47,217 nucleotides of DNA from an uncultured Porphyromonadaceae bacterium (lineage in GTDB: Bacteria > Bacteroidota > Bacteroidia > Bacteroidales > Muribaculaceae). A program made the translations under genes and the position numbers. Where the stretch lies: assembly GCA_947177035.1 (NCBI GenBank), contig CAMWSS010000017.1, positions 1 to 47,217 of the forward strand, given 5' to 3'. Below the pieces are notes generated by a model that saw nothing but the letters and a program-made list of their open reading frames with translations, was not told the origin of the DNA and ran no database searches. Positions 22,949 through 38,692 of this stretch are shown here, piece after piece. Position 1 is the first letter of the stretch. Each line of letters opens with the position of its first letter.

Positions 22949-23419
22949 ATGGATAAGACGAAAATACTGTTTGTTTGCCTCGGCAACATCTGTCGCTCTC
23001 CGGCTGCCGAGGAGGTGATGCGTTCTCTGGTGGCCGAACGTGGTCTTGACGCGATGTTCGAGCTTGATTCGGCCGGCATAAGCGGCTATCACAGCGGCGA
23101 GCTGCCCGACAAGCGGATGCGTGTCCACGCGCTCAGGCGCGGCTATGGGCTGACTCATCGCAGCCGGCAGGTCTCGGCGGTTGATTTTCCTGACTTCGAT
23201 CTGATAATCGGGATGGACGCGGCCAATCTTTCGGCCTTGCGCGGAATGGCTCCGTCGGTCGAGGATGCCCGCAAGATTCATGCCATGGCCGAGTATTTTC
23301 CTGAAGGCTGTGCTTATGACCACGTGCCTGATCCTTATTATGAAGGTGCGGAGGGTTTTGAGCTTGTGCTCGATCTGCTTGAAGACTCCTGCCGCCGCCT
23401 GCTCGACTCTCTTTCCTGA
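22949..23419 (+). CDS. Low-molecular-weight protein tyrosine phosphatase
   Basis: A 156-aa cytosolic phosphatase. The P-loop C-X5-R-S is CLGNICRS with nucleophile Cys10 and Arg16 close to the N-terminus, and the general-acid loop is VPDPYY with Asp128, which fits the family's usual length and spacing. The start at ATG 22949 places Cys10 at the expected position. A frame beginning further upstream would cross the promoter. Members dephosphorylate tyrosine kinases that control capsule and exopolysaccharide, which would suit the nearby glycosyltransferases, but no such kinase is in the window. Confidence 0.95.
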   Translation: MDKTKILFVCLGNICRSPAAEEVMRSLVAERGLDAMFELDSAGISGYHSGELPDKRMRVHALRRGYGLTHRSRQVSAVDFPDFDLIIGMDAANLSALRGMAPSVEDARKIHAMAEYFPEGCAYDHVPDPYYEGAEGFELVLDLLEDSCRRLLDSLS

Positions 23420-23463
23420 GTGCGTCGCAATTTTTGGCCGCCGCAGTGCGTTATTATGTCAGA

Positions 23464-24840
23464 ATGAAAAGATCATACCTCTGCCATATTATAATATGTG
23501 CGCTGTCGGCGGTGTTTATGCTTGCCGGGTGCATTGAAGACGGGTTTGAGACGTCGCCTTCCTCGCAGCCGCGTTTTTCGGTCGACACTCTGGATATGGG
23601 CGTGCAGTTTGCCGGCCGCCCGTCGCCGACGTATTCCTTCACCATACGCAACCCCCATTCGCGTCAGCTTTGTCTCAGTTCGGTGCGCCTGCGTTCCGGC
23701 GAGCATTTCCGCATCAACGTCGACGGAATGTCGGCCAGCGAGTTCTCCGACGTGGAGATCCGCGCCAAAGACTCTGTCTATGTGTTTGTGGAGGGCACGT
23801 TTCCGCCATCGGGGCTGCTGGGCGAGCAGACGGTCACCGACCTGATCGACGTGGTCACCAACGGTGTGACCAGTTCGGTGGTGGTGGCGGCCCGGTGTGT
23901 CGACGCCGTGGAGTTTGACGGTGTGACAGTCGGCGAGGATATGCGCCTGACGGCCGATCGTCCCTATCTTGTGTCGGACACTCTGAGGGTGAGTCGCGGA
24001 GCCACGCTGACGATCGAGGCCGGCGCTTCGCTGCTTTTTCACGACAAAGCCGCTATGGTGGTGGAGGGAACGCTGTTGGCCGAGGGAACGGCCGACGCGC
24101 CGGTGACCATGCGGGGCGACCGCACCGGCAATGTCGTGGCCGACATTTCGTTTGAGGTCATGTCCAACCAGTGGGAGGGTGTGAGGTTTGCCGAGGCTTC
24201 TGCCGGCAACCGCCTGAGCCACACTCAGATAATCAACACCTGCCAGGGGCTGATGCTCGACTCGCTCAGCGATCTGACCATGATCAACTGCCGCATAACC
24301 AATTCAGGATCGGTTCTGGTGGAGGCCCGCGCCGCCACTCTGACGGCGGTCGGCTCGGAGCTGAGCAACGCGCGCGACGCGCTGGCTCTGCTGCATTCCG
24401 GCCGATTTTTGTTTGACCGCTGCACTCTGGCCAACTGGTATCTGTTTGCCTATCCGTCGCTTGCCATCGTGGAGATGGTTCAGCCCGATTCAATTGCTTT
24501 CGATGCGGTCAACTCGGTGATCTATGGCCGCGGGGCGCCGGTTGGCTTCGGAGGCGCCGATGCCGAAGCGCTACTTGAGATGCCGCTCAGATTCCAGCGC
24601 TGCATGTTTGCGGTCGATGGCGAGGATGACGCCAATTTTGTCGACTGCATCTGGAAGGAAGATCCCGCTCTGGATTATTCGCTGACGGATTATGTGTTCA
24701 CGTATCTGCCTCTGCCGGAGTCTCCGGTCATTGACGCGGCCGACGCAACACTGGATTCGCCGCTGTTGCCTGCTGCCGATTTCCGTGGGCGTGTGCGCGG
24801 AAACACGCTCGGAGCATATGCTCCTGTTGATAATTTGTAA
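23464..24840 (+). CDS. Beta-helix-like surface lipoprotein
   Basis: A 458-aa lipoprotein starting at ATG 23464, with lipobox MLAGC (Cys23) and an acidic IEDGFE start after the Cys, a pattern seen in surface-exposed Bacteroidetes lipoproteins. The N-terminal ~120 residues look like an immunoglobulin-like strand domain (YSFTIRNPHSRQLCLSSVRL). From ~150 to 410 runs a repeated short-strand pattern (LTIEAGASLLFHDKAAMVVEGTLLAEGTADAPVTM, MLDSLSDLTMINCRITNSG) typical of right-handed parallel beta-helices. It ends with the PVIDAADATLDSPLLPAADFRGR type of motif seen in choice-of-anchor Q proteins. Substrate is unknown; polysaccharide binding or cleavage is possible, but no catalytic residue can be named. 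It follows the phosphatase by 44 bases. Confidence 0.78.
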   Translation: MKRSYLCHIIICALSAVFMLAGCIEDGFETSPSSQPRFSVDTLDMGVQFAGRPSPTYSFTIRNPHSRQLCLSSVRLRSGEHFRINVDGMSASEFSDVEIRAKDSVYVFVEGTFPPSGLLGEQTVTDLIDVVTNGVTSSVVVAARCVDAVEFDGVTVGEDMRLTADRPYLVSDTLRVSRGATLTIEAGASLLFHDKAAMVVEGTLLAEGTADAPVTMRGDRTGNVVADISFEVMSNQWEGVRFAEASAGNRLSHTQIINTCQGLMLDSLSDLTMINCRITNSGSVLVEARAATLTAVGSELSNARDALALLHSGRFLFDRCTLANWYLFAYPSLAIVEMVQPDSIAFDAVNSVIYGRGAPVGFGGADAEALLEMPLRFQRCMFAVDGEDDANFVDCIWKEDPALDYSLTDYVFTYLPLPESPVIDAADATLDSPLLPAADFRGRVRGNTLGAYAPVDNL

Positions 24841-24850
24841 AATTAACACT

Positions 24851-24962
24851 TAGGCTGTTGTATAGTTCTGGAAAAGTGTGTAATTTTGCGGCGTTGATTT
24901 AAAAAAACAGGATTCAAACCAATCTGATTCTTATCTAAGGTAAATGGACATGCAACAGCCTA
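24851..24962 (+). repeat. Inverted repeats bracketing the fimbrial promoter (possible invertible element)
   Basis: TAGGCTGTTG at 24851-24860 and its exact reverse complement CAACAGCCTA at 24953-24962 flank 92 bases. Outward-inward extension gives 12 of 13 matching positions. The left arm supplies the TGTTG used as the -33 box. This geometry fits invertible promoters known from Bacteroidales surface loci. That it inverts is inference; no recombinase gene is nearby. Confidence 0.45.
24857..24888 (+). promoter_or_regulatory. Promoter of the fimbrial operon
   Basis: GTTG (24857-24860), 20 bases, then TAATTTTG (24881-24888) forms a Bacteroidetes promoter pointing toward the fimbrial genes, with the -33 box inside the left inverted repeat. 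As given, the sequence would be in the ON orientation. Confidence 0.6.
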
Positions 24963-25090
24963 TACTTAATCATTATGTCGTAAGCGCCATAATGGGAGGA
25001 TTTTTGCAGAAAGGTGTGAAAATACCCCCCCCCAATTACCATAATCTCTTGTCTGATAAGAGGTTGCGTTGCGCGTCTGCTTTTGGCTGA
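24944..25090 (+). CDS. Possible 48-aa leader open frame
   Basis: ATG at 24944 opens 48 codons ending at TGA 25088-25090. The frame spans the right inverted repeat and the C9 tract, which reads as three proline codons. No family is recognised and codon use is not telling at this length. It may be chance, a leader peptide, or, given the C-run, a frame prone to slippage. Confidence 0.2.
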   Translation: MDMQQPILNHYVVSAIMGGFLQKGVKIPPPNYHNLLSDKRLRCASAFG

Positions 25091-25284
25091 CGGTCGTGGC
25101 GCGTTTTGTCGTGCTCTTTTTGATCTGAAGCGCACGACCGCTTCTGTGTGTATTGCTGTGCCGTGATGGAGCTTATCCGTTGTGTCGCAGTCTGCTGTGA
25201 AATGCCGATCTGAAATATAAATTTTAATTTAATTCGTCGAAAAACAATTATATAGAAGCCGATGCGGCTACACTTCATGACATT

Positions 25285-25866
25285 ATGAAACTGAAGTTAT
25301 TATCGTTTATGCTTATGCTTGTCAGCTGTGCTGTCGGAGGACGGGCCCAAAGCGTGGCGCTGAAGACAAATCTGCTGTCGGACGTAATGCTCACTCCGAC
25401 TCTCGGCATTGAGACCGGGCTTGCTCCGAAATGGAGCGTGGAGCTGACCGGCATGCTGAACGCCTGGGAAGTCAATGACCACATATTCAAGCAGTGGCAG
25501 CTGAAACCTGAGCTCCGCTATTGGTTCTGTCAGCGCTTTTCGGGACATTTTGTCGGGGCGCATCTGATTGCCGGTCAGTTTAATTTCGGCAACATCGACA
25601 ATGGCATAAAATTTCTCGGCACCGACTTTTCAAAGCTTTCCGACCGGCGCTATCAGGGCTGGGATTTCGGCGCGGGGCTGGCCTATGGTTATGCCTGGAT
25701 CCTTTCAAAGCACTGGAATCTTGAAGCCGAGATAGGCCTGGGCTGGATTCATGCCCGATTCGACGAGTTCCGGTGTGCCGACTGCGGCAAAAAACTCCGT
25801 TCAAACCTCACGCACAACTATTTCGGTCCGACAAAGGCCGCTATAAACCTGGTCTGCACCTTCTAA
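25285..25866 (+). CDS. DUF3575 outer-membrane beta-barrel-like protein
   Basis: A 193-aa exported protein with a signal peptide cleaved near GGRAQS and the DUF3575 opening VALKTNLLSDVMLTPTLGIETGLAPKWSVELTGMLNAW. Alternating polar and hydrophobic strands with aromatic girdle residues, and the ending AAINLVCTF, fit a small outer-membrane beta-barrel. A pair of cysteines (CADCGKK) sits near residue 165. DUF3575 genes commonly open Bacteroidales fimbrial operons next to DUF3868 genes; role in pilus export or anchoring is inferred. It is the first gene after the putative invertible promoter and is 15 bases before the next gene. Confidence 0.85.
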   Translation: MKLKLLSFMLMLVSCAVGGRAQSVALKTNLLSDVMLTPTLGIETGLAPKWSVELTGMLNAWEVNDHIFKQWQLKPELRYWFCQRFSGHFVGAHLIAGQFNFGNIDNGIKFLGTDFSKLSDRRYQGWDFGAGLAYGYAWILSKHWNLEAEIGLGWIHARFDEFRCADCGKKLRSNLTHNYFGPTKAAINLVCTF

Positions 25867-25881
25867 ACAGCATACTCTCGG

Positions 25882-27393
25882 ATGAAACGTTTTATCCCAA
25901 CAATCGTTGCCTGCCTGCTGGCCTTCGTCCCCGGGCAGGCTCTCCGGGCCAAGACTCCGGATTCGGCTCTGAAAGTCTATGACATGGAAGTCGCAGTCGA
26001 CGATCAGGCGCGTCAGCTCAACATCGACATCGACCTGCGTCTGTCGGAAATCAGCCTTGGCCGTGACCGCGAGACAATATTCACTCCGGTGGTGGTCAGC
26101 GCCGACGGTTCGGAATCAGTGAACCTTCCGTCGATCATCGTGGCCGGACGCAACCGCTGGTACTGGCATCTGCGCAACGGCGGTCTGACCACCGACGAGC
26201 GCCGCGTTTATCGCGCCGGCCAGGATCAGCAGCATGTGACCGTGTCGCAGACCCTTCCCTTTGAAGACTGGATGGGCGACTGCACCGTCGAAATGCGCGA
26301 AGAGTCGGGCAACTGCTGCGCCACTCCCCGCCCTGTGCCCGGTTCCAGCGAACACGGCATGATCGAGCTGGCCCGCATCTCAACCTCCCGTCCGGCCCTG
26401 CTCGAGGAGTTTGTGTTTGCTCCGCCGGTCAATGCCGGTCCTGTTGTCAAGGAGCTGAGCGGCAGCGCGTTCATCACCTTCGTGGTCAACCGCACCGAAC
26501 TGAAGCCCGACTATATGATCAACCGTGCCGAACTTGCCAAGATCATCAACTCCATCGACTTTGTGCGCCAGGACTCCGACGCCACTATCACCCACGTCCA
26601 CATCAAAGGCTTCGCATCGCCCGAAGGTCCTTATGACAACAACGTGCGTCTGGCAAAAGGCCGCACGGAGACCCTGCGTCGCTATGTGCGCGACCTCTAT
26701 AACTTTGCCGACACCACCATCACCTCCAGCTATGAGCCAGAGGACTGGGCCGGACTTACCTGCTATCTGCGCGACTCGATGGACTATAAGATCGACCATC
26801 GTGCCGAAATTCTTGAAATCATCGACTCTCCGCTCGGATTCGATGCCAAGGACCACACCATTCGCCAGCGCTTCCCCCAGGATTATTCCGTGATTCTTAA
26901 GCAGATATATCCCTGGCTGCGTCATTCGGACTACACCGTGCGCTATTCAATCCGCACCTACACCAGCGTCGAAGAGATACGCCGCGTCTATGATGTCGAT
27001 CCAACGCGCCTGCGCAACGTCGACTTCTACACTCTGGCCCAGTCCTATCCCGAAGGCTCGCCCGAATATTGCGCAGTGTTTGAAAAGGCGGTCGAGGTAT
27101 ATCCCGACGATCCGGGCTCGAATCTCAACGCCGCCAACATCGAGATGAAGCGCGGAAACTATGACCGCGCCCAGAGTCACCTGTTGCGCGCCGGACGCAC
27201 GCCCGAGGCCGACTTTGCCCGCGGAGTGCTCGCCGCCCGCCGCGGCGACTATGGCGAGGCTCTCCGCCTCTTCTCCATCGCAGCCGAGGCCGGAGTGCCA
27301 CACGCCGATGAATATATCAGCAATGTCAGCGCCATGCGTGACTATCACCCCGTCACCTATTCAATTGAGCGCTCCCGAGAAACTGAACAATAA
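25882..27393 (+). CDS. DUF3868 / OmpA-like / TPR protein of the fimbrial operon
   Basis: A 503-aa exported protein. After the signal peptide (cleavage near ALRAKT) comes a DUF3868-like beta domain (~30-190). An OmpA-like peptidoglycan-binding domain follows (~195-285), with FVVNRTELKPDYMINRAEL, then IKGFASPEGPYDNN and LAKGRTETLRRYV. The C-terminal quarter (~385-490) has TPR-like helices (AVFEKAVEVYPDDPGS, GNYDRAQSHLLRAG, GDYGEALRLFSIA). It probably ties the fimbrial assembly apparatus to the cell wall. It lies between the DUF3575 gene and the major fimbrillin, the usual order in Bacteroidales fimbrial loci. Confidence 0.85.
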   Translation: MKRFIPTIVACLLAFVPGQALRAKTPDSALKVYDMEVAVDDQARQLNIDIDLRLSEISLGRDRETIFTPVVVSADGSESVNLPSIIVAGRNRWYWHLRNGGLTTDERRVYRAGQDQQHVTVSQTLPFEDWMGDCTVEMREESGNCCATPRPVPGSSEHGMIELARISTSRPALLEEFVFAPPVNAGPVVKELSGSAFITFVVNRTELKPDYMINRAELAKIINSIDFVRQDSDATITHVHIKGFASPEGPYDNNVRLAKGRTETLRRYVRDLYNFADTTITSSYEPEDWAGLTCYLRDSMDYKIDHRAEILEIIDSPLGFDAKDHTIRQRFPQDYSVILKQIYPWLRHSDYTVRYSIRTYTSVEEIRRVYDVDPTRLRNVDFYTLAQSYPEGSPEYCAVFEKAVEVYPDDPGSNLNAANIEMKRGNYDRAQSHLLRAGRTPEADFARGVLAARRGDYGEALRLFSIAAEAGVPHADEYISNVSAMRDYHPVTYSIERSRETEQ

Positions 27394-27434
27394 TAACAAA
27401 TACACATAATCAAAACTTAACTAATTATCAACAC

Positions 27435-29276
27435 ATGAACAAGTTTGCTAAATTGTTTGCAGGCATGGCCGTGATCTCGCTCGCCGCCTCCTGCTCAAGC
27501 GACGAACCGATGGGTACTACCGGCGGCAACGACAACGCCGAAGGATCGACCCTTTATCTGGCTGTCAATATTCAGGACGCAACCTCATCCATGGGGCTGG
27601 CTTCAGCCCCGTCCAAGGGCCGTGCCGAAGAAGAAGATGGCGACCGTACTGGCGCTGACGGCGGCTATGGAAACCTCAATAATGCTGACACCGAGCACAA
27701 AGTAAATTCTGCCCGCTTCTTCTTCTTCGACGAAGGAGGCGTGTTCGTGACCGAAGCCAACGTATGGTCCGATGGCGCTCCGACTGACGGCAATGTCAAC
27801 AATGTGGAGTTTAAAAGCACTGCCATGGTCGTGCTCAAGGGTCTCAAGGAAAAGAGCCTGCCCAAATATATGTTCACTATTGTGAACTGCCCGGCTGATT
27901 TCCAAGCCGCCGCAACTCTGGAAGAAACTGCACGTCAGACTGCTGACATCAATAACGGTCAGGACTATTTCGTTATGTCGACATCGTCGTTCAATCCGAA
28001 CGACACACAGTTGGCTGACAAGACATACAACTCGAAGTATCCCTATGCCAACTATGTAACGGAGAACAGTTTCTACACTGAACCCAAGGAGATTGCCGAT
28101 ATTGCCAATCCGGTGATTGTCTATGTTGAGCGTCTGGCCACAAAGACCACTTTCGAAATGGTCAATAAGACTCAGCCTGTGACCGTGACCGTTGCCGGTA
28201 ACCCCAATGGAGAGGATGAGGAAAAGAACGATAATGTTGCCAAAACCACTCTCTATGTGACCATCGACGGTTTCGCTGTGACCAACGTTGAAACTGAAAG
28301 CTATATTGCCAAAAACATCGACGGCTTCAAAGGTCTTGAATCAACGTTCGGTGCAAATGCTCTCGGCAAATGGTCGTGGAACAAGGCCGATGATTTCCGC
28401 AGCACCTGGGGCATGTCCACAACCTATGGCCAGGCCGCTCCCGCACTCAAGCACATCGCTTTTCCCGAAGCGGCCAAGCATGATGTTGCGGCTCCCTACT
28501 ACTCTTATGAAACCACCAACACTCTTGCCAACGTTGACACCGAGACCCATCGCGTGAAGGACGCCAACGTGCCCTGCGTGATCTTCTCCGCTACCGTGAC
28601 AAGCGATGCCGAAGGAAAGAATCCTGTGAATCTCGTTGAATACAACGGTGTATACTTCCTCGAGCGTACTTTCGTTGAATATGGCCTGAACCGTCTGAAA
28701 GGCGACTCCAAAGGTCTGAACTTCTATACTTATGTAGGCACAAGCACCGATCCCTCGACCGACAACGATATCAAAAACTATGAAGGTATTCCCGCAAACT
28801 TCGTGACCATTCAGAAAAAAGGCACCAGCGCCGGTGTGGTTGAGCTTTGCGCAGATAAACAGAAAATTGGCAGCACAACGCTTTATGCCAAGAATGGCGA
28901 GAAGTTTGAACCCACCACAATTGAAGCTCTCAACACCCGTCTGGCTGAGTTCACCGCCGAGGGAAGCGCACAGGCTATCGCCGCCCGCACCGGTAAAACC
29001 TACTATACCGTTCCTGTGAAGCACCTCCGCGCCAACACCGCCCTGACTGAAGATAAGCCCTATCAGGTGAACGCCGAAGGTCAGTACGGCATGGTCCGCA
29101 ACCACTGGTATCAGATCTCTGTGGACAAGATCATGAAGCTCGGTCATGGCGTGTATGATCCCGATAACGATAACGAAATCATCGAACCGGAAGATCCCGA
29201 GGACGACACCTATGGTCTCGGTGCCAAGATCAACATCCTCTCTTGGAAGATTGTCAAGCAGAATGTCAATCTCTGA
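27435..29276 (+). CDS. Mfa1-like major fimbrillin
   Basis: A 613-aa lipoprotein precursor: MNKFAKLFAGMAVISLAASC with Cys20 and then SSDEPMG, acidic after the Cys. The N-terminal beta domain (ARFFFFDEGGVFVTE) and the C-terminal domain with VRNHWYQISVDKIMKLG, ending INILSWKIVKQNVNL, match Mfa1/FimA-type subunits. These are matured by an Arg-specific protease and polymerise by strand exchange through the C-terminal strand. A candidate cleavage site is Arg63 in SKGRAEEE, leaving an acidic new N-terminus. GC content is lower and Asn/Thr/Lys higher than in its neighbours, as expected for a highly expressed surface subunit. A strong terminator follows, so it should be the most abundant product of the operon. 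Confidence 0.85.
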   Translation: MNKFAKLFAGMAVISLAASCSSDEPMGTTGGNDNAEGSTLYLAVNIQDATSSMGLASAPSKGRAEEEDGDRTGADGGYGNLNNADTEHKVNSARFFFFDEGGVFVTEANVWSDGAPTDGNVNNVEFKSTAMVVLKGLKEKSLPKYMFTIVNCPADFQAAATLEETARQTADINNGQDYFVMSTSSFNPNDTQLADKTYNSKYPYANYVTENSFYTEPKEIADIANPVIVYVERLATKTTFEMVNKTQPVTVTVAGNPNGEDEEKNDNVAKTTLYVTIDGFAVTNVETESYIAKNIDGFKGLESTFGANALGKWSWNKADDFRSTWGMSTTYGQAAPALKHIAFPEAAKHDVAAPYYSYETTNTLANVDTETHRVKDANVPCVIFSATVTSDAEGKNPVNLVEYNGVYFLERTFVEYGLNRLKGDSKGLNFYTYVGTSTDPSTDNDIKNYEGIPANFVTIQKKGTSAGVVELCADKQKIGSTTLYAKNGEKFEPTTIEALNTRLAEFTAEGSAQAIAARTGKTYYTVPVKHLRANTALTEDKPYQVNAEGQYGMVRNHWYQISVDKIMKLGHGVYDPDNDNEIIEPEDPEDDTYGLGAKINILSWKIVKQNVNL

Positions 29277-29323
29277 TAAAACTGCATACAATATCCTATT
29301 CTCTATATTTAACTGATCAGAAC

Positions 29324-29371
29324 CCGGGCGCGACCTCACTTGGCGTGCCGTCGCGCCCGGTTATTTTTTCT
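29324..29371 (+). terminator. Terminator inside the fimbrial operon
   Basis: CCGGGCGCGAC (29324-29334) pairs perfectly with GTCGCGCCCGG (29350-29360), 15-base loop, followed by a T-rich tract TTATTTTTTC. It sits after the major fimbrillin and before the anchor subunit, and no consensus promoter is seen in the following 120 bases. So the downstream minor subunits are probably made from read-through. Confidence 0.88.
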
Positions 29372-29490
29372 TTCTCCCACCTCTCTGCTCAAAACTGTAG
29401 ATTCTCCTCGCGGAATGCTGACCAGGTCTCCGTTCCCACCAAAACCGACAAACCATAAGCCGAAAGGCCACATCATATATATCCAATCAG

Positions 29491-30507
29491 ATGAAACTAT
29501 TTCACAACATATTCACCCGACTGACTCTGGCCATGGCCGGCTGCGTGGCTCTGGCCGGCTGCGACGGGCTTATCTATGACGAAGAAGGTGACTGCGACTA
29601 CCGGATCCGCTTTGTTTTCGACAAGCATCTGCATCATTCTGACGCATTCGCCTATGAAGTCAACGCCGTCACGCTCTATCTGGTCGACGACGCCACCGGC
29701 CGGATCGTATGGCAGAAGTCGGAGTCCGGGCCTGAGCTGAAGAGCGGCCATTACCGCATGACCATTCCCGACGACATGATTCCAGCCGGCAACTATTCGA
29801 TGATCGCATGGTGTGGCGATGGAGTCGGCACTCATTTCTCAGTTGCCGATGCCGATCATTATGCCGGGCTGAACTGCCGGCTTGAACGTCAGTATGACCA
29901 GAGCGGCCGCGCGTTTTCAGACTGCAATCTCAACCGCCTGTATCACGGACGTCTCGACGCCGTGCGTCTGGCCCCCGACGTCACGGTGCGCGATTTCACC
30001 GTGCCTCTGACCAAGGACACCAACGACGTCACCATTCTGCTTCAGAACCTTGACGGAGTTCCCATTGAAGACGGTGACTTCACCTTCCAGATCATCGACG
30101 CCAACGGACACATGGACTGGGACAATTCCATTATGCCCGACGAAGAGATCGTCTATCGTCCGCACCACGTCAGCTATGGCATGGCCCAGCCGCTCGATGC
30201 TCCGGCCGCGCGAGCCTCGGTGTCGATGCCGGTATGTTTCGCCGAATTCTCCGTTGGGCGCATGATGGCCGACCGCGATATGCGCCTGGTGGTTCTCGAT
30301 GCCGCCGGCGACACCACCGCCAACTTCCCCCTGATCAACTATGCCCTGATGGTCAAGGGCACCAACAATCTGAAATATGACGATCAGGATTTTCTTGACC
30401 GACAAGACAAATTTGACCTCACGCTGTTCATGAAAAACGACCGTTGGCAGCAGGTGCAGCTCAACATTCTGTCGTGGCAGCTGGTGATTGACCATATAGA
30501 CCTTTAA
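29491..30507 (+). CDS. FimB/Mfa2-family fimbrial anchor subunit
   Basis: A 338-aa lipoprotein of the FimB/Mfa2 family (PF08842-like). Signal and lipobox are VALAGC with Cys24, followed by DGLIYDEEGDCDYRIRF, the family's opening pattern with a second Cys. Family motifs continue with VNAVTLYLVDDATGRIV and AGNYSMIAWCGDG. The C-terminal strand LNILSWQLVIDHIDL resembles the end of the major fimbrillin. Mfa2/FimB proteins anchor the fimbria base to the outer membrane and set its length. It is preceded by the terminator and 131 bases without a clear promoter. The stop overlaps the next start (TAATG). Confidence 0.88.
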   Translation: MKLFHNIFTRLTLAMAGCVALAGCDGLIYDEEGDCDYRIRFVFDKHLHHSDAFAYEVNAVTLYLVDDATGRIVWQKSESGPELKSGHYRMTIPDDMIPAGNYSMIAWCGDGVGTHFSVADADHYAGLNCRLERQYDQSGRAFSDCNLNRLYHGRLDAVRLAPDVTVRDFTVPLTKDTNDVTILLQNLDGVPIEDGDFTFQIIDANGHMDWDNSIMPDEEIVYRPHHVSYGMAQPLDAPAARASVSMPVCFAEFSVGRMMADRDMRLVVLDAAGDTTANFPLINYALMVKGTNNLKYDDQDFLDRQDKFDLTLFMKNDRWQQVQLNILSWQLVIDHIDL

Positions 30508-32096
30508 TGCCTGTAATTCCGATTAAAATGATTTCACGGATCCGACATATCTATCTGGCTCTGATCGCGGCTCTGGCTGTGACTGCGGCTTTGTGTGCCT
30601 GTGTGCCTGCCGACGTGATCGATGATGCCGGCTCCAGTCCGTCGGACTCGGCCGCCACACTGGCGTTTGTCATCAGCACGGGCGACACCCAGGACTCGGC
30701 TGGCACTCCGGCTGCATCAAGTCTCTCGAAAGCCACTCCCGCTGATGGTCCATATGATCCCGGAACAGGCTTTGAAAACTACATACACATCGAAGCCGAG
30801 CCTTCGGACATTGCCGTCTATCTGTTTGACGGCGACGGCAGATTCCTGTTTCAGGCCACCGATCCCAAGCTGGTCAGACTCAATTCCTATCCCTCGGCAA
30901 AATCATATGAACTCTACTTTTCGGTGCAGCAGGCCGACAAAGACCGCATAGACCGACAGAACATCAAGGTGGTGCTTCTGGCCAACTGGCGCCGGTATCC
31001 GTCGCTGTCGGCCGGCAACACCGTGGCCGATCTCGTTGCCGCCTCAGAGGCGGTGATGGACTATTCTCCCGTCGGACTCATCGCCTCCGTCGCTGACCGC
31101 ATACCGCTCTTTGGCGTGATCCACATTGACCGGCTCAGCCTTCTCCCCTCGGGCAACACCACATGGCTCGGAACTCTCCATCTGCTCCGCTCGCTGGCCA
31201 AAGTCACAGTGGCAGACTCCGACCTGCTGGCCGGAGTGGGCGACGGCCTGAAAATCCAGTCAGTGGAACTGACGCGCTATAACACCCGCACTGTCAAGGC
31301 TCCCTCCGGAGTGACTCATCAGGACCAGTATGTCAAAGGCTCCTATGCCAAGGACTATCTCGACTGGGTCACTGTGGCCGACGGCGCCGAGGCCGCCATT
31401 CCGCTTGCTTTTGCCGAAATTTCGGCCGGCGTATTCCAGATCTATTGTCCGGAGTATCCCAACATAGGCCGCGGCGACGCGCAGCGCTCGCGCATCAGAG
31501 TCACCTACAACGACAACGAAGAGTTCTACATTGACTTCAAATTCTACTCCGGCCCCTCCAAAAACTCCGCCTTCGACGTCTGCCGCAACAACTGGTACCA
31601 GTTCGACGTCATGCGCAGCAAAGCCTCGATAAATTGTGAAGTTCAGGTAATACCTTATTCTATAATTGAACTGAATCCAGGATTCGGTGTGTCGATAGAC
31701 AGGCCGCTTGTGCCTATAAGAAACGATAACGGGCAGCTTGAATATTGGTATGATCCCGAGACTGGCAAATTTTATGGTCTGGATAAGAAAACGGAGATTC
31801 CAAATCCGAATTTCAGTTCAGACCCGATTAACGGATGGGTGCTGATGCGTGATGAAAACAGCCAGTTCGTCTGCTATAACGACCAAGTGTCCGGTCGGTT
31901 TTATGGCTGGGACAGAACAACTGAGATTGCAGATCCATTTGAAACGGATCCGCAGGGCACAGGCTGGCTTATAATTCAAAATCCGGAGAAAACCAGAGTC
32001 TACTATTATTACCATCGTTCAAGCAGTACATGGTATCTGCCAGACAAAACGACCAAGGTCGAGAGGCCTTTTGATAATAAATCAGAAATATCCTGA
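30507..32096 (+). CDS. Accessory or tip fimbrillin with C-terminal WW-like repeats
   Basis: A 529-aa lipoprotein. It starts at ATG 30507 in the TAATG overlap; ATG 30528 also works and gives a neater signal peptide. The lipobox is ALCAC. Residues ~75-390 look like the Mfa-type two-domain fimbrillin fold: IAVYLFDGDGRFLFQ, a RSLAKVTVAD strand, NNWYQFDVMRS and IIELNPGFG, the usual end of the second domain. Beyond it come three tandem repeats of about 43 residues (~401-521). The gene is GC-rich up to about 31,640 and clearly AT-richer after, so the repeat tail may be a later addition. Likely role: minor subunit near the fimbria tip, with the repeats as a ligand-binding module (inference). Confidence 0.75.
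   Translation: MPVIPIKMISRIRHIYLALIAALAVTAALCACVPADVIDDAGSSPSDSAATLAFVISTGDTQDSAGTPAASSLSKATPADGPYDPGTGFENYIHIEAEPSDIAVYLFDGDGRFLFQATDPKLVRLNSYPSAKSYELYFSVQQADKDRIDRQNIKVVLLANWRRYPSLSAGNTVADLVAASEAVMDYSPVGLIASVADRIPLFGVIHIDRLSLLPSGNTTWLGTLHLLRSLAKVTVADSDLLAGVGDGLKIQSVELTRYNTRTVKAPSGVTHQDQYVKGSYAKDYLDWVTVADGAEAAIPLAFAEISAGVFQIYCPEYPNIGRGDAQRSRIRVTYNDNEEFYIDFKFYSGPSKNSAFDVCRNNWYQFDVMRSKASINCEVQVIPYSIIELNPGFGVSIDRPLVPIRNDNGQLEYWYDPETGKFYGLDKKTEIPNPNFSSDPINGWVLMRDENSQFVCYNDQVSGRFYGWDRTTEIADPFETDPQGTGWLIIQNPEKTRVYYYYHRSSSTWYLPDKTTKVERPFDNKSEIS
31707..32069 (+). repeat. Three tandem ~43-residue WW-like repeats (coding)
   Basis: Residues 401-521 of the accessory fimbrillin form three units starting near Leu401, Trp444 and Trp487. 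Shared core: an aromatic triplet (YWY, VCY, YYYY), a Ser/Thr-rich turn, [FW]-Y, a Gly/Leu, an Asp, a Lys or Arg, one or two Thr, [EK]-[IV], and Pro. In unit 3 Trp487, Trp509 (22 later) and Pro512 (3 after that) match the spacing of a WW domain. Units differ too much at DNA level to be recent copies. Confidence 0.7.
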
Positions 32097-32099
32097 CGA

Positions 32100-35000
32100 A
32101 TGAACATATTGCATAAAAAACTGATATATATATTTGTCTGCCTGTTTTTTGCCGGTAGCATTGCTTCGTGTGTCGATGATTTCGATCCGAATCTGGGCGA
32201 ACTGGATGGAAGCGTGCGTGACATCAATGTTTTGGTAAACTTCGAGCCGAATCAAGATGCCTCGTTGCAATCACGGTCAGCCGACGGCAACAGCATACAG
32301 GATATTTCCTCACTACGTATGCTGATATATGATGAATCTGGCACGAATCTCATATACGATTATCTTGTGTGGGAAAACGGGAAAAAAGCCGGACTGAACC
32401 CCGATGCCATATCGTCTGAGAGTTACTCTCCATATGTGGCCGACGAGGATGGAATGAAAGACAATGCGACTGCCATGTTGTCTTATAACCTTAAATTGAA
32501 AACAGGCGATTATTATATATATGCTGTAGCCAATGCGGAAAAGGAATTGGCGGGTTCAGATTATTCTACCGTTGAAAAACTGAAAGCAGTGAATTGTGTC
32601 TGGAATTTGGATAATGTGAAGGACAACAGCCAGATGTTTGGTATCTTCTCTCTGACCAGCGACCAGACTGCGTATAAAGACGACAAGCCTGTAAGAGTGT
32701 CGAACACCACGACTACTCTCCATAGTTGGGTGCGTCGTCTGGCATCAAAGATAACTGTTGCTTTTGATGGCTCAGAATTATATGATAATGTGCAGATTTT
32801 CATTGAATCTGTTTCCATCCATGACATTGCCAAACAATGCGCACTTGGGGTGCCTAACGTGGCGGGCATAGATCCAGGCGAAGCGGCGAATTATGATTAT
32901 CGCAATCTTACAGATGAAACCAAACAGCCTAAAATGCTTGCAGCCGATAAGCGTTATGCTGTGGAAAACGGCGTTATAGCTATAGGTGATATTGACGAAA
33001 TACAGAAAGTAGACACTTCGCGGCCTGTTGTCCCTGATGAATATTACCATATCTGCAACAAATCCCATCCATATATGGGAATGGAGACCGGCAACGGAAA
33101 TTCATCAGACGAGTCTATTTTAGAACATAGCCATGCTCAGAAAGCAAAGGCCTTTTTCTTCTATGAAAATCTTCAGGGCGTGAGCGCTGAGGGCCGGTCA
33201 AAATATCAGGATGGCGACGGAGATGGAAAGATTGACAATCCGGATCCGGAAGAAAATGATCTGAACAGTGGTTGGAAAGATGGAAAAGCATATGGCACGT
33301 ATGTCGAGGTAATAGGTTACTATCGTTGTACGGAAGCCGACGAACACGTTAACTCAGGCCCGATACGTTATCGCTTTATGTTGGGCAAGGACGTTGAAAA
33401 GGATTTCAATGTGGAGCGCAATCACCATTATCAGCTGACGCTCAAATTCAAAGGCTATGGCAATGAAGCCGACTGGCATATTGTTTATGAGCATGAACGC
33501 AATATAGAGGTGCAGTCGCCCATGTATATTTCCTATTTGTTCAACAAGAAGTCGATGGCTTCTATGAGAATTTCAGGCAAGTTGCCTGAAGGCGCTAAAT
33601 TGCGTGCCGAGATTGTTGAATGTGACTGGCGTCCGTGGGGTCTTGTCGGTTCGACAGCTTTTCCTCCTGTTCCGCAGGAGGCATACTCTCCGGTGTCATG
33701 GACTGAAAAAGACGGACCATGGAACAGCTTTCTATCGCTTCGCATGACCAAGGTGGTCAAAATCGAAATTCCGGGCAAAGAGGGCATGCCGTCCAACCAG
33801 TATGACTGGGAAGAGTCATGGAATTATAATAAAACTTATTATGTAACCGAGCATAAAGGCTGGCGCACATATGATCTGATGCTGCCGAAGGGTGAAAACG
33901 GCAAGGACGAAGGTTCTACAAGCTATGATTCCCAGGATAGCAAAGGGCAAAGCGAGGGGCTGTATTTTGTATCTAAGCTGGCGGAAGATGCTGCGGGAAA
34001 CACGGTTGAAAGGCTTGTCACTATACCATTGTTTACCCGCGCGAAGGAATTGATTACCCGAATAGGTTTTACTGGCAATAATCCATACACTGCTTATCCA
34101 CGCAACGCGATAGTTAAATTGCAGATTGTGCAATCAGACGGTGTGACTCCTGTGGATGGCTTTAAGCCTCAGACTATGCAGGTGATACAGGTGCGTCGTG
34201 TTGTTAACCCTAAAGGCGTTTGGCGTCGCTCGGGATCGACTGAGCCTTTCCGTGTCACCTTGATGCGTTTGCTGGACGAGGAGTCTGATTTCGTAGAGTT
34301 TAAATCAGAAGGTAAATGGTATGCCGAAGTTTTCCAGGGAAATACGTCGGGAACTATATCTCTTTCATCAACAGAAAAAGGTAGTGGCGTAGGCAACCGG
34401 CCCCAGTCGTTTGTTAATCGCATTGAAGGTGAATCGGAGCATCCGATTGATTTTATGATCAATTTTCATGGGGTTGATGGGTCGGCAATTGTGAGAGTGC
34501 GCTATCATAACGGCACTTGTGAGCACGACATATTCTGCCGGGAAGGTTATGACCCTATTGATGTCAGCGGTGCCAACAACTGTCTATGGCCGTCATATAA
34601 TGTTGCATATTTCAATGGTAAAACCCCGGTCTATACAAAATCGCCTTTGCAGCAAGGTTCTTATTTTCGCCTTCAAAATTATACGGCCATATGCGCTAAT
34701 AATGACGGATCTCCTGATGGTAAAGGCGCATTGGGCTTTAACAAACGACCGTATTCAACGATGTTTGACGTTATTGAATCCGATAAAAATGGGGCGGTGT
34801 CTAAGAAACAATGGGGTAGTATCACTCCGTCTGCTTCCGTTGTTAATGCACAGGGCTTTTCCGAATGGGAGATAAGTAGCTCTCAGAGCCATATACCCGC
34901 AACTCATCCTGATTATCAGGAGCACGTTGCGACTGGTACAGATTTTTATGAATTTATCTCAGCTGACGCTAACGATGTGGATTTCCCAATAAGTAAAGGC

Positions 35001-35525
35001 TATGGCGTGCTGTATGGTGACGGTGCGCGTGAGACGCAGAGCAGTCTGTCGCAGGCATATGGCTATGACCGCACTGATGGAGCAGATGATCCGAGAGGAA
35101 TGCGAGGTGTGTTTGTCTATAATATCAATACGGCGGCACAGATCTTTTTCCCGATCGGCATAACCGGATATGGCCACAGACAGTCCTGGAATATGGGTGG
35201 TTCTGGCGCTGATGTTGATGGGACATTGCGTTATGCAGGCAGATATAAAATCATGGCAACAACCGGAGATCTGCTGGATAAGCGCCCCATGTTCTATGAT
35301 CTTTACCGGCGGCCTGGAGCGGTATATTGGATGGCGCATTTCTATCCGAGTATGCCTAGTTTGCCAGGGACGAAATTCATTGACGTGAAGAAGTCATCGG
35401 CTTTTGATATGAATTATTTTTCGATGAGTTTTGAAGGGTATGGTGGTAATGATGCCGTTCCCGGAAATAATCCGGCAAACAGCCACGGATGTCTCATGCG
35501 TACAGTCTTGAGCAAAAAGAAATAA
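32100..35525 (+). CDS. Large DUF4906-type fimbrial tip protein
   Basis: A 1141-aa lipoprotein with signal and lipobox SIASC (Cys24) followed by VDDFDPN. The first ~470 residues follow the fimbrillin pattern (VLVNFEPNQD, LRMLIYDESGTN, ASKITVAFDG, KDFNVERNHHYQLTLKFKGYG). From ~480 on the sequence fits the DUF4906-type extension seen in large Bacteroidales fimbrial proteins, probably an adhesin domain. Residues 371-379 (DGDGDGKID) form an EF-hand/dockerin-like calcium loop between them. GC content is clearly below that of the housekeeping genes, suggesting transfer. It starts 3 bases after the previous stop and is the last gene of the operon. Target unknown. Confidence 0.75.
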   Translation: MNILHKKLIYIFVCLFFAGSIASCVDDFDPNLGELDGSVRDINVLVNFEPNQDASLQSRSADGNSIQDISSLRMLIYDESGTNLIYDYLVWENGKKAGLNPDAISSESYSPYVADEDGMKDNATAMLSYNLKLKTGDYYIYAVANAEKELAGSDYSTVEKLKAVNCVWNLDNVKDNSQMFGIFSLTSDQTAYKDDKPVRVSNTTTTLHSWVRRLASKITVAFDGSELYDNVQIFIESVSIHDIAKQCALGVPNVAGIDPGEAANYDYRNLTDETKQPKMLAADKRYAVENGVIAIGDIDEIQKVDTSRPVVPDEYYHICNKSHPYMGMETGNGNSSDESILEHSHAQKAKAFFFYENLQGVSAEGRSKYQDGDGDGKIDNPDPEENDLNSGWKDGKAYGTYVEVIGYYRCTEADEHVNSGPIRYRFMLGKDVEKDFNVERNHHYQLTLKFKGYGNEADWHIVYEHERNIEVQSPMYISYLFNKKSMASMRISGKLPEGAKLRAEIVECDWRPWGLVGSTAFPPVPQEAYSPVSWTEKDGPWNSFLSLRMTKVVKIEIPGKEGMPSNQYDWEESWNYNKTYYVTEHKGWRTYDLMLPKGENGKDEGSTSYDSQDSKGQSEGLYFVSKLAEDAAGNTVERLVTIPLFTRAKELITRIGFTGNNPYTAYPRNAIVKLQIVQSDGVTPVDGFKPQTMQVIQVRRVVNPKGVWRRSGSTEPFRVTLMRLLDEESDFVEFKSEGKWYAEVFQGNTSGTISLSSTEKGSGVGNRPQSFVNRIEGESEHPIDFMINFHGVDGSAIVRVRYHNGTCEHDIFCREGYDPIDVSGANNCLWPSYNVAYFNGKTPVYTKSPLQQGSYFRLQNYTAICANNDGSPDGKGALGFNKRPYSTMFDVIESDKNGAVSKKQWGSITPSASVVNAQGFSEWEISSSQSHIPATHPDYQEHVATGTDFYEFISADANDVDFPISKGYGVLYGDGARETQSSLSQAYGYDRTDGADDPRGMRGVFVYNINTAAQIFFPIGITGYGHRQSWNMGGSGADVDGTLRYAGRYKIMATTGDLLDKRPMFYDLYRRPGAVYWMAHFYPSMPSLPGTKFIDVKKSSAFDMNYFSMSFEGYGGNDAVPGNNPANSHGCLMRTVLSKKK

Positions 35526-35551
35526 CGGCCAGCTTGATGGCGGGCAGATAT

Positions 35552-35604
35552 AACGACCGGCAGGTGTTTTGATCATCATGTGACCGAAACGTCTGCCGGT
35601 TGTT
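35552..35604 (+). terminator. Terminator of the fimbrial operon
   Basis: AACGACCGGCAG (35552-35563) pairs with CTGCCGGTTGTT (35593-35604), 12 bp with one G-U, 29-base loop. The following T-tract is weak, so it may be bidirectional and also serve the convergent GNAT gene. Confidence 0.6.
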
Positions 35605-35635
35605 ATTGGATATAGTGGCTTGTTCGGGGGAGGGG

Positions 35636-36772
35636 TCAGATGTCGCGGCGGAAGGCCTGGCGGCGACGGTGCTGGCGGTGGTTGAAGTATTGCCACTGGG
35701 CCTGCACGTTGGCGTTTGACGCCAGTTCCGGATTGCTTTCAGCCCATTTGTAGCCATAGCGGTTGTAGACCGGAATCAGTTGCTCGAACAGCAGCGCGTT
35801 GACGCCTTTGTTCTGATACTCCGGCGACACAGCCACCAGCAGCAGGTCGACCACGTCGTTGCCCTTTTTGGCGGTGAGGGCCTTGAGCAGAGGTATCCAC
35901 CCGAAGGGGAAGAGGCGTCCGCGAGCCTTGCGCAGCGCCTTTGAGAATGACGGGATGGATATGCCGATGCCCTGTATCTTGCGGTCTTTGTCGGCTATGA
36001 CGCAGACGGTGTCGAGGCGTATCAGGCCCAGATACAGGCCGATATAGTAGTCGATCTGGCGTTGTGTCAGCGGAGAGTAGCCATAGAGCTTGTCGTATGC
36101 ACGGTTGATCAGCTCAAACAGCGGTTGGCCGAACTCTTCCTTCAGGGCCTTGCGCGAGGTGAAGGTGATGCACTGCAGGCCATATTTCGCTTTGACCAGA
36201 GCGGCTATGCGCTTCATCTTTTCGGGCACTTCGGCCGGCACTTCCATGCGGAATTCGAGCCATTCGGCTTCCGGTTTGAAGCCCATGCGCTCGAGCTGGC
36301 GCGGATAGTAGGGATGGTTGTATATGGTGGCCATCGTGCCCATTTCGTCAAATCCGTCCACCAGCATGCCCTCATGGTCCATGTCGGTGAAGCCCATCGG
36401 GCCGAGCATGGTGGTCATTCCGTGGGCGCGTCCCCAGTCGGCCGCGGCGGCAAACAGAGCGTCGACCACTTCATTGTCGTCGATGAAGTCAACGAAGCCG
36501 AAGCGCATTTCCTTCTGGCCGGTGCGTGCGTTGACTGCGGTGTTGATTATGGCTGCGATCCGTCCGACCGGTTTGCCATCGCGGTAGGCCATGAAGGCGG
36601 CCGCCTGGCAGAAGTCAAACGCCGGATTTTTTGACGGCAGCAGGGTGTTGACGTCGTCGAGTATGAGCGGCGGCACGTGGCAGGGATTGTCCCTGTAAAG
36701 GTCGACCCCGAATTTCACAAAGCGGCGCAGGGGGCCGCGCTTCAGCGGGATCTGCTTTATTTCTACTGACAT
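35636..36772 (-). CDS. GNAT-fold acyltransferase-like protein
   Basis: A 378-aa cytosolic protein of a conserved Bacteroidetes family with a GNAT acyltransferase fold. The N-terminal half has FMAYRDGKPVGRIAAIIN, a strand pair typical of GNAT domains, and ends in MLGPMGFTDMDHEGMLVDGFDEMGT. The C-terminal half (~250-378) has LLLVAVSPEYQNKGVNALLFEQL, close to the acetyl-CoA binding motif V-x-P-x-x-x-x-x-G. So it may be a double GNAT. Substrate unknown. It is the last gene of a three-gene minus operon after the pseudokinase, with a 4-base gap. Confidence 0.8.
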   Translation of the reverse strand: MSVEIKQIPLKRGPLRRFVKFGVDLYRDNPCHVPPLILDDVNTLLPSKNPAFDFCQAAAFMAYRDGKPVGRIAAIINTAVNARTGQKEMRFGFVDFIDDNEVVDALFAAAADWGRAHGMTTMLGPMGFTDMDHEGMLVDGFDEMGTMATIYNHPYYPRQLERMGFKPEAEWLEFRMEVPAEVPEKMKRIAALVKAKYGLQCITFTSRKALKEEFGQPLFELINRAYDKLYGYSPLTQRQIDYYIGLYLGLIRLDTVCVIADKDRKIQGIGISIPSFSKALRKARGRLFPFGWIPLLKALTAKKGNDVVDLLLVAVSPEYQNKGVNALLFEQLIPVYNRYGYKWAESNPELASNANVQAQWQYFNHRQHRRRQAFRRDI

Positions 36773-36776
36773 ATAT

Positions 36777-37553
36777 TTATGGTCTTAGGCAGAGAATCAC
36801 GGTGAGAATCACCACCACCACCGTCAGAAACGCGATTATAGCCAGATAGAGCCTTATGGTTGAGCGTTCGGCCACTGCCATTTGCAGCTGCTGCACGTTC
36901 CGGTAGGGGAACGGGCTTAGACATCTGTCGGCCACGGCCCTCAGATGCGGGAAGTTTTCGCCCGGGCAGGCGTCGAGCGCTGCGCTCAGCACCTGTCCGT
37001 AGCTGCGTATGTCGTCGGCCACGTCGGTTGGCTCCAGCTGGTTTTTCTGGTCAAACCCGACGTCGATCAGTTTCAGGTTTCCGATGTTTTCCGTGAAGAT
37101 CACTGTCTCCGGGCGGATGGGGTGGTGGATGATATGGTTTGTCTGGACATAGTCCAGAGCTTCCGGAAGCTGTCGGCTCACTTTCTGCACGATTTCAGGC
37201 GTGACTTTCCCTGTGTCGATCAGTTTGCGCAGGGAGTCGCCGTAAACGTCGTCGGTGATGATGCAGCGTCCCAGTCCCGGCACCTCCTCCAGATCATTGA
37301 TCATCACGATTCGGGGATGAGCCAGATTATACCTGACCTCGAATTCCCGTTCAAGCATGGACTCATATTCAGGCTTGCCCTTGAATTCCTGCTTCAAGGT
37401 TTTGAGCATCACCCATTTGCCGAATTTTTTAGCGGTGTATACGTCATAAAACGTCTCGTCCCATTCCGGCAGATGCTCGATCTCGGTCCATTTTCCCCCT
37501 TGCGGGGCCGGAGGCTGTTTGGAATCCGCGGCGGTGTTGGCTTCGTTCATCAC
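36777..37553 (-). CDS. Membrane-anchored protein kinase-like pseudokinase
   Basis: A 258-aa protein with a Ser/Thr-kinase-like domain (residues ~25-225) and one C-terminal membrane helix (234-256). The ATP lysine is probably Lys51 in VMLK, and the metal-binding motif is DVG (Asp164), but the catalytic loop HRDLKPEN reads HHPIRPET (143-150). The catalytic Asp is Pro and the Asn is Thr, so activity in the usual way is unlikely. The domain is shorter than a full kinase (little C-lobe after residue 225). It probably binds a partner at the membrane. Its start overlaps the Lrp gene stop by 4 bases. Confidence 0.8.
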   Translation of the reverse strand: MMNEANTAADSKQPPAPQGGKWTEIEHLPEWDETFYDVYTAKKFGKWVMLKTLKQEFKGKPEYESMLEREFEVRYNLAHPRIVMINDLEEVPGLGRCIITDDVYGDSLRKLIDTGKVTPEIVQKVSRQLPEALDYVQTNHIIHHPIRPETVIFTENIGNLKLIDVGFDQKNQLEPTDVADDIRSYGQVLSAALDACPGENFPHLRAVADRCLSPFPYRNVQQLQMAVAERSTIRLYLAIIAFLTVVVVILTVILCLRP

Positions 37554-38017
37554 TCTTGCTCTGACTGGATGGGGATTTCGCGGTTGATGCTGCTGTCGAG
37601 CGAGATCAGTGTTTCGGTGCCGGTCACGCCGGGAATCATCTGAATGCGGTCGTTGAGCAGGCGCATCAGGTGTTCATTGTCGCGGGCATAGAGTTTCACC
37701 AGCATGGTGTACGGGCCTGTGGTGTAGTGGCATTCCACTACTTCGGGAATCTGCTCCAGATAGGGAAGCGCGTCGCGATACATGGCACCGCGTTCCAGAT
37801 TCACTCCCACATAGGTGCAGGTGCTGAATCCGAGCGTTTTGGGATTGACATTGTAGCCCGAGCCTGTGATGATGCCCATATCGGCCAGGCGCTGTATGCG
37901 CTGGTGGATGGCGGCGCGGCTCACGCCGCACTCTTCTGCCACGTCTTTTGACGGAATTCGGGCATTGTAAATGATTATGCTCAGAATTTTACGGTCTAAT
38001 GCATCTATTTTGTCCAT
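37550..38017 (-). CDS. Lrp/AsnC family transcriptional regulator
   Basis: A 155-aa regulator with an N-terminal AsnC-type helix-turn-helix (residues ~4-50: LDRKILSIIIYNARIPSKDVAEECGVSRAAIHQRIQRL) and a C-terminal RAM/AsnC ligand-binding domain (~70-145: YVGVNLERGAMY, VVECHYTTGPYTMLVKLYARDNEHL). Members sense amino acids or related molecules. It leads the operon with the pseudokinase and the GNAT protein, but its targets are unknown. Confidence 0.93.
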   Translation of the reverse strand: MDKIDALDRKILSIIIYNARIPSKDVAEECGVSRAAIHQRIQRLADMGIITGSGYNVNPKTLGFSTCTYVGVNLERGAMYRDALPYLEQIPEVVECHYTTGPYTMLVKLYARDNEHLMRLLNDRIQMIPGVTGTETLISLDSSINREIPIQSEQE

Positions 38018-38051
38018 ATTTCACACAATATAGTAATTATAAATTCGCTGA

Positions 38052-38082
38052 CAAAATTAGTGTTTTTTCTTCATTCTACAAT
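38052..38082 (-). promoter_or_regulatory. Promoter of the Lrp-pseudokinase-GNAT operon
   Basis: On the minus strand ATTG (38082-38079), 19 bases, then TAATTTTG (38059-38052), 34 bases before the Lrp start. The -33 box differs from TTTG by one base. Confidence 0.65.
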
Positions 38083-38216
38083 CATTTTGCCACTAAAATC
38101 TCACCAGTCTCCTGATTTTCCCATTTCAGAGTGTCTTTGTCTGCGGGATTTCTGAATCATGCGGTCCGGTTTGATGGATTTCTGAGCCTGAGGCGGGAAA
38201 TGTGTGACATATTGCG

Positions 38217-38224
38217 TATCTTTG
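38217..38224 (+). promoter_or_regulatory. -7 element of the FKBP gene
   Basis: TATCTTTG matches TAnnTTTG, 20 bases before the ATG at 38245. No TTTG is found at -33. Confidence 0.6.
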
Positions 38225-38244
38225 CAGCCTGTAATTATAGAATT

Positions 38245-38643
38245 ATGAGCAAACAGGAATATATTGAAAGAAACCGGGCCTGGTTGCGCCAGAAGGCGGC
38301 CGAGCCTGGCGTGATGTCGCTTGACAAGGGCATATATTATAAGGTGATGAAGCGCGGCGACGGAAAATTGCCTTCGCCCGGACGTAACAGCGTGGTGACG
38401 GCCCATTATACCGGATCGCTGATCAACGGCAAGCGGTTTGACAGCAGCCGCGGCTCGACAGCCCCGGCATTCCGCCTGCGCGAGCTGATTGCCGGATGGA
38501 TCATAGCCCTGCAACAGATGCATCCGGGCGACCGGTGGGAGATCTACATTCCTGCCGAGCAGGGCTATGGCCAGCGCAGTCAGCCGGGCATTCCCGGAGG
38601 CTCCACTCTGATTTTCGATGTGGAACTGATCAGTGTGTATTAA
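38245..38643 (+). CDS. FKBP-type peptidyl-prolyl cis-trans isomerase
   Basis: A 132-aa protein with an FKBP domain (~30-132): VVTAHYTGSLINGKRFDSSRG, FRLRELIAGWIIALQQMHPGDRWEIYIPAEQGYG and GSTLIFDVELISVY. Active-site aromatics are kept (Tyr of HYTG, FDSS, the GW of the V-I-x-G-W-like AGWI, and YG). The start at ATG 38245 leaves no signal peptide, so it is likely cytosolic; in-frame starts further upstream cross the promoter. It is followed after 49 bases by the CNNM-type gene, which has its own promoter. Confidence 0.93.
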   Translation: MSKQEYIERNRAWLRQKAAEPGVMSLDKGIYYKVMKRGDGKLPSPGRNSVVTAHYTGSLINGKRFDSSRGSTAPAFRLRELIAGWIIALQQMHPGDRWEIYIPAEQGYGQRSQPGIPGGSTLIFDVELISVY

Positions 38644-38675
38644 ATCTTTTACGTGTCATATTCGCCGGGAATAGG

Positions 38676-38683: not shown

Positions 38684-38692
38684 CAATCATAT

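Follow-up and report, generated by a model that had tools for sequence, protein, structure and literature searches.

The variable C-terminal tail of a probable Bacteroidales type V tip pilin appears to track the neighbouring giant protein gene

The stretch of DNA analysed here, termed the window, comprises 47,217 nucleotides of contig CAMWSS010000017.1 (assembly GCA_947177035.1) from an uncultured Porphyromonadaceae bacterium of the Muribaculaceae. It contains a type V (Fim/Mfa) fimbrial operon with genes in the order DUF3575, DUF3868/OmpA/TPR, Mfa1-like shaft, Mfa2 anchor, tip pilin and a giant protein of 1141 residues. The subject of this study is the C-terminal tail of the tip pilin, which is composed of three tandem aromatic repeat units. 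Sequence comparison among relatives indicates that the tail is a swappable C-terminal cassette of the pilin and that its type co-segregates with the downstream protein of ~1,100 residues and not with its own pilin core. The features of the locus are as follows.

25285..25866, + strand: DUF3575 outer-membrane protein, at the start of the fimbrial cluster (Pfam PF12099, E=1.2e-66)
25882..27393, + strand: DUF3868/OmpA/TPR protein (PF12984 26.8 bits, cut-off 27; OmpA and TPR matches weak)
27435..29276, + strand: shaft (stalk) pilin, Mfa1-like (PF15495 Fimbrillin_C E=3.7e-15; NCBIfam fim_Mfa1_fam E=3.6e-29, 102.3 bits, under the cut-off of 130)
29491..30507, + strand: anchor pilin, Mfa2 family (PF08842 E=2.4e-44)
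30507..32096, + strand: Mfa3-like probable tip pilin with C-terminal repeat tail, 529 residues (from the translation and the Foldseek match to Mfa3)
30660..31682, + strand: pilin core, about residues 52-392; the core common to relatives ends at an FG(L/I/V) motif
31707..31811, + strand: repeat unit 1, residues 401-435 (predicted strands 7-10, 16-21 and 26-28, tail-model numbering)
31833..31940, + strand: repeat unit 2, residues 443-478 (predicted strands 50-53, 59-64 and 69-71, same numbering)
31962..32072, + strand: repeat unit 3, residues 486-522, earlier proposed as a WW domain (predicted strands 92-96, 103-108 and 113-115, same numbering)
32100..35525, + strand: downstream giant, putative tip protein, 1141 residues (PF06321 P_gingi_FimA 22.4 bits, cut-off 21.4; DUF4906 24.2 bits, cut-off 27.7)

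The fold of the pilin core is most closely matched by the tip pilin Mfa3 of Porphyromonas gingivalis (PDB code 5nf4, Foldseek E=5.7e-11), and the 17 chains found at E<=0.001 all come from Bacteroidales and carry descriptions as fimbrial, adhesion or, in one case, putative polysaccharide-binding proteins. The AlphaFold model behind this comparison is of modest confidence, with a mean predicted local distance difference test (pLDDT) score of 67.4, and by Foldseek it has the two-domain type V pilin fold of Mfa3-like tip and accessory pilins. The Mfa1-like shaft and Mfa2 anchor pilins expected of such an operon are identified upstream by PF15495 and PF08842. Cys-32 of the tip pilin lies, by eye, in a lipobox-like context. 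No NCBIfam family matches the protein over its cut-off (fim_Mfa1_fam 17.4 bits, cut-off 130), and the FimD tip adhesin model NF052322 (cut-off 170 bits) gives 19.7 bits (E=0.00029) with the homologue from Bacteroides acidifaciens and no match at E<=1 with the window protein. Within its type V fimbria the protein is probably an Mfa3-like tip or adaptor pilin and would be placed at the fiber tip, which agrees with the initial annotation of an accessory fimbrial subunit.

The three units, seen in the initial annotation as repeats of about 43 residues following a fimbrillin fold, start 42 and 43 residues apart. Global alignments support the pairs 1-2 (z=10.6, 0 of 2000 shuffles as high), 2-3 (z=8.7, 0 of 2000) and 1-3 (z=4.8, 1 of 2000). 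At E<=1 a profile built from 27 units finds exactly these three places in the window's own genome, with E=2.5e-17, 2.8e-17 and 3.1e-13, scores that are partly by construction as the three units are among the profile rows. The unit consensus is GWxxxRDDNGxxxYYYDxxTGxYYxxDxxTxIxxP. AlphaFold predicts three strands in each unit, both in the full protein and in the tail modeled alone (mean pLDDT 84, predicted template modelling score 0.71); the strands are those assigned by DSSP alone. Neither the units nor the tail match any Pfam family at its cut-off. The units are an uncatalogued repeat.

Two known repeat types are reminiscent of the units. The OCRE domain (PF17780) of RBM5/RBM10 shares a YYYDPxTGxYYD motif and matches 13 of the 27 units (best E=0.0003, 21.2 bits) and the window tail (20.3 bits), in each case under the cut-off of 24.7. 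However, OCRE is a run of aromatic octamers (PMC5127646, excerpt), whereas a single YYYDPxTG-like motif occurs here in each ~43-residue unit. Among PDB sequences the unit profile matches AFFinger p17 best (3wkn, E=1e-4, with a best stretch of 11 residues) and RBM5 OCRE less well (5mf9, E=1.4e-4, with one of 14 residues), in both cases through a short motif. The NG-YYYD-TG pattern of the units resembles YD repeats. The fold search with the tail gives no significant match (best Foldseek E 0.27), and its two top matches are a teneurin chain and an Rhs chain; Pfam RHS has no match in scans of the window proteins, units or tails.

The initial annotation had proposed a search for the repeat in other fimbrial loci. 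The profile matches 21 of 297 genomes of the window's family and 2 of 393 drawn from the order (both in the family); in a sample of 395 from the phylum it matches 1, the window's own genome. In all 21 family genomes the matches lie on the same contig as a relative of the fimbrial protein. A scan of named genomes gives ten loci, eight labeled as Muribaculaceae or Porphyromonadaceae metagenome-assembled genomes and two as Bacteroides, and B. acidifaciens carries the repeat. The number per protein ranges from 2 units to 11 profile matches, the longest array being in a 1179-residue relative (L049 208-3744, G296:C13) in which two of the 11 matches are weak (i-E 3.3 and 4.7). One giant protein (L043 2863-4800) has a single repeat-unit-like stretch (E=1.8e-7 for the protein, iterated profile). 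Viral relatives of the B. acidifaciens tail were considered and rejected, as none of five pattern matches was confirmed.

The tails were compared across relatives of the tip protein, which has matches in 72 of 297 genomes; 30 loci and 20 fetched stretches, mostly best matches, were used. The trees contain 49 tip proteins including that of the window. Left out of them are L031, a copy of the gene in the window, L048, whose core falls below the threshold, L049, which has a partial core, and the distant L050. The tails fall into the repeat class (23 proteins), 'RDxDGN' (8), 'ELYIVG' (4), 'GDL' (3) and others (3), and eight proteins have no tail. The repeat class comprises the window protein and 22 of the 48 sampled relatives, each with two or more tandem aromatic units of ~43 residues. 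One representative each of the 'RDxDGN', 'ELYIVG' and 'GDL' tails was scanned and matches no Pfam family at cut-off. The domain 'ELYIVG...EFWFALGLNTELEPERFYSHGNQ' is found in the tails of L020, L021, L023 and L042, the last having two copies, and the domain 'GDYYAIHRGTDGTMA' in those of L024, L035 and L038.

One exchange of a tail is clearly defined. The cores of L012 (repeat tail) and L035 (GDL tail) are placed on short sister branches (0.12 and 0.10), and their tails are unrelated. The corresponding genomes, G119 and G092, share 90% identity along 8.8 kb that end within the tip gene, past which the tail and the whole of the next gene differ, the giants being 30% identical, and similarity of 80% returns directly after the giant gene. 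A diversity-generating retroelement or cassette repeats were considered and rejected; the only direct repeat of at least 30 nucleotides found in window positions 23000-40000 is a 34-nucleotide pair with 71% identity, and no search for a reverse transcriptase was made. The inverted repeats in the vicinity of the operon have 14-21-nucleotide arms. One GC-rich stem of 16 nucleotides (88% complementary) with a 5-nucleotide loop is located at 29324-29360, between the shaft stop codon (29276) and the anchor start codon (29491), and could tune shaft versus tip expression.

An open reading frame (ORF) starts between -40 and +95 nucleotides around the stop codon downstream of all 49 tip genes and leaves the stretch in 47 of them. 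In longer stretches the downstream protein has 1,026-1,186 residues in 21 of 24 operons, including those of the window and B. acidifaciens. A tree built from at most 460 N-terminal residues of the downstream protein requires 9 changes of tail class over the 49 rows, compared with 19 on the core tree (minimum 5, shuffled mean 24.2). The gap is retained in short segments, with 18, 18 and 19 changes for thirds of the core (95, 109 and 122 columns) and 9 and 9 for two downstream pieces (115 and 92 columns), so resolution does not explain the difference between core and downstream protein. When the comparison is restricted to the 41 rows whose anchor could be used, the anchor gives 15 changes, the core 15 and the downstream protein 9, the anchor tree including doubtful ORFs on very long branches.

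The same relationship is seen within the repeat class. The Mantel test used 12 canonical repeat proteins. The main repeat clade on the downstream tree has 15 rows, of which the near copies L002, L006 and L018 were dropped. Tail and downstream distances are correlated (r=0.45, 2 of 5000 permutations as high), compared with r=0.15 for tail and core (673 of 5000) and r=0.05 for core and downstream protein (1633 of 5000), and the partial correlation of tail and downstream protein given the core remains 0.45 (2 of 5000). In addition, three genomes have a tandem arrangement of tip-giant-tip-giant in which the two tips belong to different tail classes and no shaft or anchor ORF is present between the pairs; the second giant leaves the stretch in each case.

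L115 6760-17001: tandem tip-giant pairs, with one shaft and one anchor gene preceding both pairs
L033 814-10501: tandem tip-giant pairs; the stretch is too short to show the genes ahead
L040 675-8019, reverse strand: tandem tip-giant pairs; the stretch is too short to show the genes ahead

A further genome, G118, has two tip-protein matches on one contig on opposite strands. The operon of the named strain B. acidifaciens DSM 15896 starts with a DUF3868-like gene and continues, as in the window, with shaft, anchor, tip and giant, the likeness of the neighbors being judged by eye, as is that of the gene upstream of its shaft gene (L061) to the DUF3868/OmpA/TPR gene. Annotation of the window giant (32100-35525) and its B. 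acidifaciens counterpart (L061 6675-10073) is thin, with a DUF4906-like middle region under the cut-off; the FimA-like start is present in the window giant and has no equivalent match in the counterpart, and Pfam identifies no VWA domain in either.

The co-segregation suggests that tail and giant function as a matched pair, possibly in physical contact. P. gingivalis Mfa3 binds Mfa1, Mfa2, Mfa4 and Mfa5 in vitro and is termed an adaptor, and neither Mfa4 nor Mfa5 binds Mfa1 (PMC5954841, excerpt). The adaptor role of Mfa3, together with the absence of its C-terminal part from the crystal structure, suggests by analogy that the core joins the shaft and the tail is matched to the giant. The pilin core would be incorporated by the usual type V strand exchange, with the tail projecting from the tip pilin and providing a docking or co-receptor surface matched to its own giant tip protein, and a strain would alter the specificity of the fiber tip by swapping a single cassette of tail and giant. 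A tail matched in this way would be expected to travel, evolve and duplicate with the giant gene. Tail and giant are seen to be exchanged, inherited and duplicated together, whereas the core does not follow the tail. We consider it a little short of an even chance that the protein is an adaptor at the fiber tip and that its tail pairs with its own giant. The extended form of this proposal, in which the two-part cassette of tail and adjacent giant switches the tip specificity of Bacteroidales type V fimbriae, the tail is the socket on which its own giant is mounted, and tandem pairs provide one shaft with alternative tips, is put forward slightly more tentatively.

Several observations weigh against the pairing of tail and giant. 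Tail and giant gene are adjacent, and block exchange by linkage could produce the co-segregation without contact; the strongest competing explanation is linkage combined with selection for diversity among surface proteins. The pilin core also adjoins the tail and is equally divergent (mean distance 0.62 versus 0.61), yet it does not co-segregate, although this is not proof. Tail class is also non-random on the core tree, as 19 or fewer changes occur in 0 of 200 shuffles, and the repeat class alone needs 5 changes on the downstream tree. The labels derive from single-linkage BLAST with hand assignment of four rows (L004, L013, L024 and L046) where the core profile extended past the core into the tail. 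The exchange between G119 and G092 is the one clear case at high identity, and no more were found. The eight tail-less proteins have only 3-21 residues past the core, indicating that a tail is not always needed beside a giant protein. The mfa5 genotype of P. gingivalis strains is independent of their mfa3 type (PMC8313007, excerpt).

An alternative role for the tail is that of a ligand-binding (adhesin) domain, presenting aromatic faces to a gut glycan or protein, with the giant co-segregating only because both are exposed specificity genes that move as one block. This is a credible though doubtful explanation. Different tails on closely related cores and the variable number of units are what it would predict, and the exchange between G119 and G092 is compatible with it. 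However, the correlation of tail and giant distances within the repeat class, independent of the core, is better accommodated by pairing, even if linkage could mimic it; moreover, searches by fold and by family match the tail to no known adhesin or lectin at a significant level, and eight of the 49 proteins have no tail. The repeats might instead act only as a stalk or spacer, making the tip longer and taking no part in binding, as variable numbers of tandem units are typical of spacers and these units are small and β-structured. A spacer has no need of a tie to the sequence of the downstream protein or of conserved aromatic positions, yet the tie is seen and the aromatic positions are conserved in the unit consensus, making this explanation improbable.

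The initial annotation had tentatively assigned the units to the WW family. As WW domains, or as domains acting alike, they would bind proline-rich peptides of a host, neighboring or fimbrial protein. WW domains have two Trp residues 20-23 apart and a Pro three residues after the second. Trp-487, Trp-509 and Pro-512 of unit 3 are at the positions described, and the three predicted strands per unit are the feature whose lack had been named as counter-evidence. However, this spacing is present in the window protein only in unit 3, the second Trp and the Pro are variable among relatives, and two of the 24 repeat-bearing proteins have W-x(18-24)-W-xx-P, namely that of the window and its 97%-identical congener. 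Weak matches to PF00397 occur in 5 of the 27 units (best E=0.015) and in the B. acidifaciens array (13.5 bits, E=0.075), all under the curated cut-off of 26.9 bits, whereas the full 529-residue protein has no WW match in Pfam at E<=10 and unit 3 alone matches no Pfam family. PF00397 exceeds its cut-off in 0 of 99 genomes, the window's own genome having no match at E<=1. No WW chain is present among the 16 PDB sequences matching the unit profile at E<=10, in the best 50 of 154 Foldseek matches or among the 50 VIA-align matches listed, where small folds are easily missed. A proline-rich partner is likewise not evident, as inspection by eye of the shaft and giant proteins of 24 operons (giant not recovered in three, shaft in one, and the ORF taken as the L019 shaft appearing wrong) shows no class-specific stretch, the maximum of 3-6 Pro per 20 residues having no difference between tail classes. 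A bacterial precedent is the WW-like domain, with mutants, proposed for a mannosyltransferase (PMC12331936, excerpt). The units are probably not WW domains, and a WW-like function is highly unlikely; of the initial annotation, the tandem units after a fimbrillin fold, the probable tip protein and the three predicted strands stand, and the WW assignment is not supported.

A tail that follows the neighboring giant rather than its own pilin provides a testable hypothesis of tip assembly and tip switching, and the gene order shared with B. acidifaciens DSM 15896 means that it can be tested in a named strain. If correct, tandem tip-giant pairs would allow alternative tips on one shaft; two mfa5 genes in tandem occur in some P. 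gingivalis strains (PMC8313007, excerpt). The binding targets of gut Bacteroidales fimbriae are little known (PMC12632263, excerpt). No report of coupling between tail and giant was found in the open-licence PMC papers surveyed, including the excerpted text of PMC4789730, PMC7835359, PMC5789003, PMC5954841, PMC8313007 and PMC12632263.

Tip pilins with extra C-terminal domains are already known. Those Bacteroidales type V tip pilins in which a C-terminal domain binds the ligand (PMC12632263, excerpt) share with the window protein the arrangement of a core and an additional C-terminal domain, and differ in that the units and tail described here match no Pfam family over cut-off. The closest relationship is with Mfa3 of the P. 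gingivalis Mfa1 fimbriae, also of type V, which has the same two-domain pilin fold and whose gene follows that of the anchor, mfa3 after mfa2 (PMC8313007, excerpt), as does the tip gene in the window. Mfa3 also has a C-terminal part past the solved core, with 105 residues lost to proteolysis and missing from the crystal, and its last nine residues are dispensable for polymerization (PMC5789003, excerpt). In a difference from the Mfa1 fimbriae, no Mfa4-sized gene is present between the tip and giant genes of the window (32096 to 32100), and in contrast to Mfa3 the window's tail is formed by tandem aromatic units and varies between strains along with the next gene.
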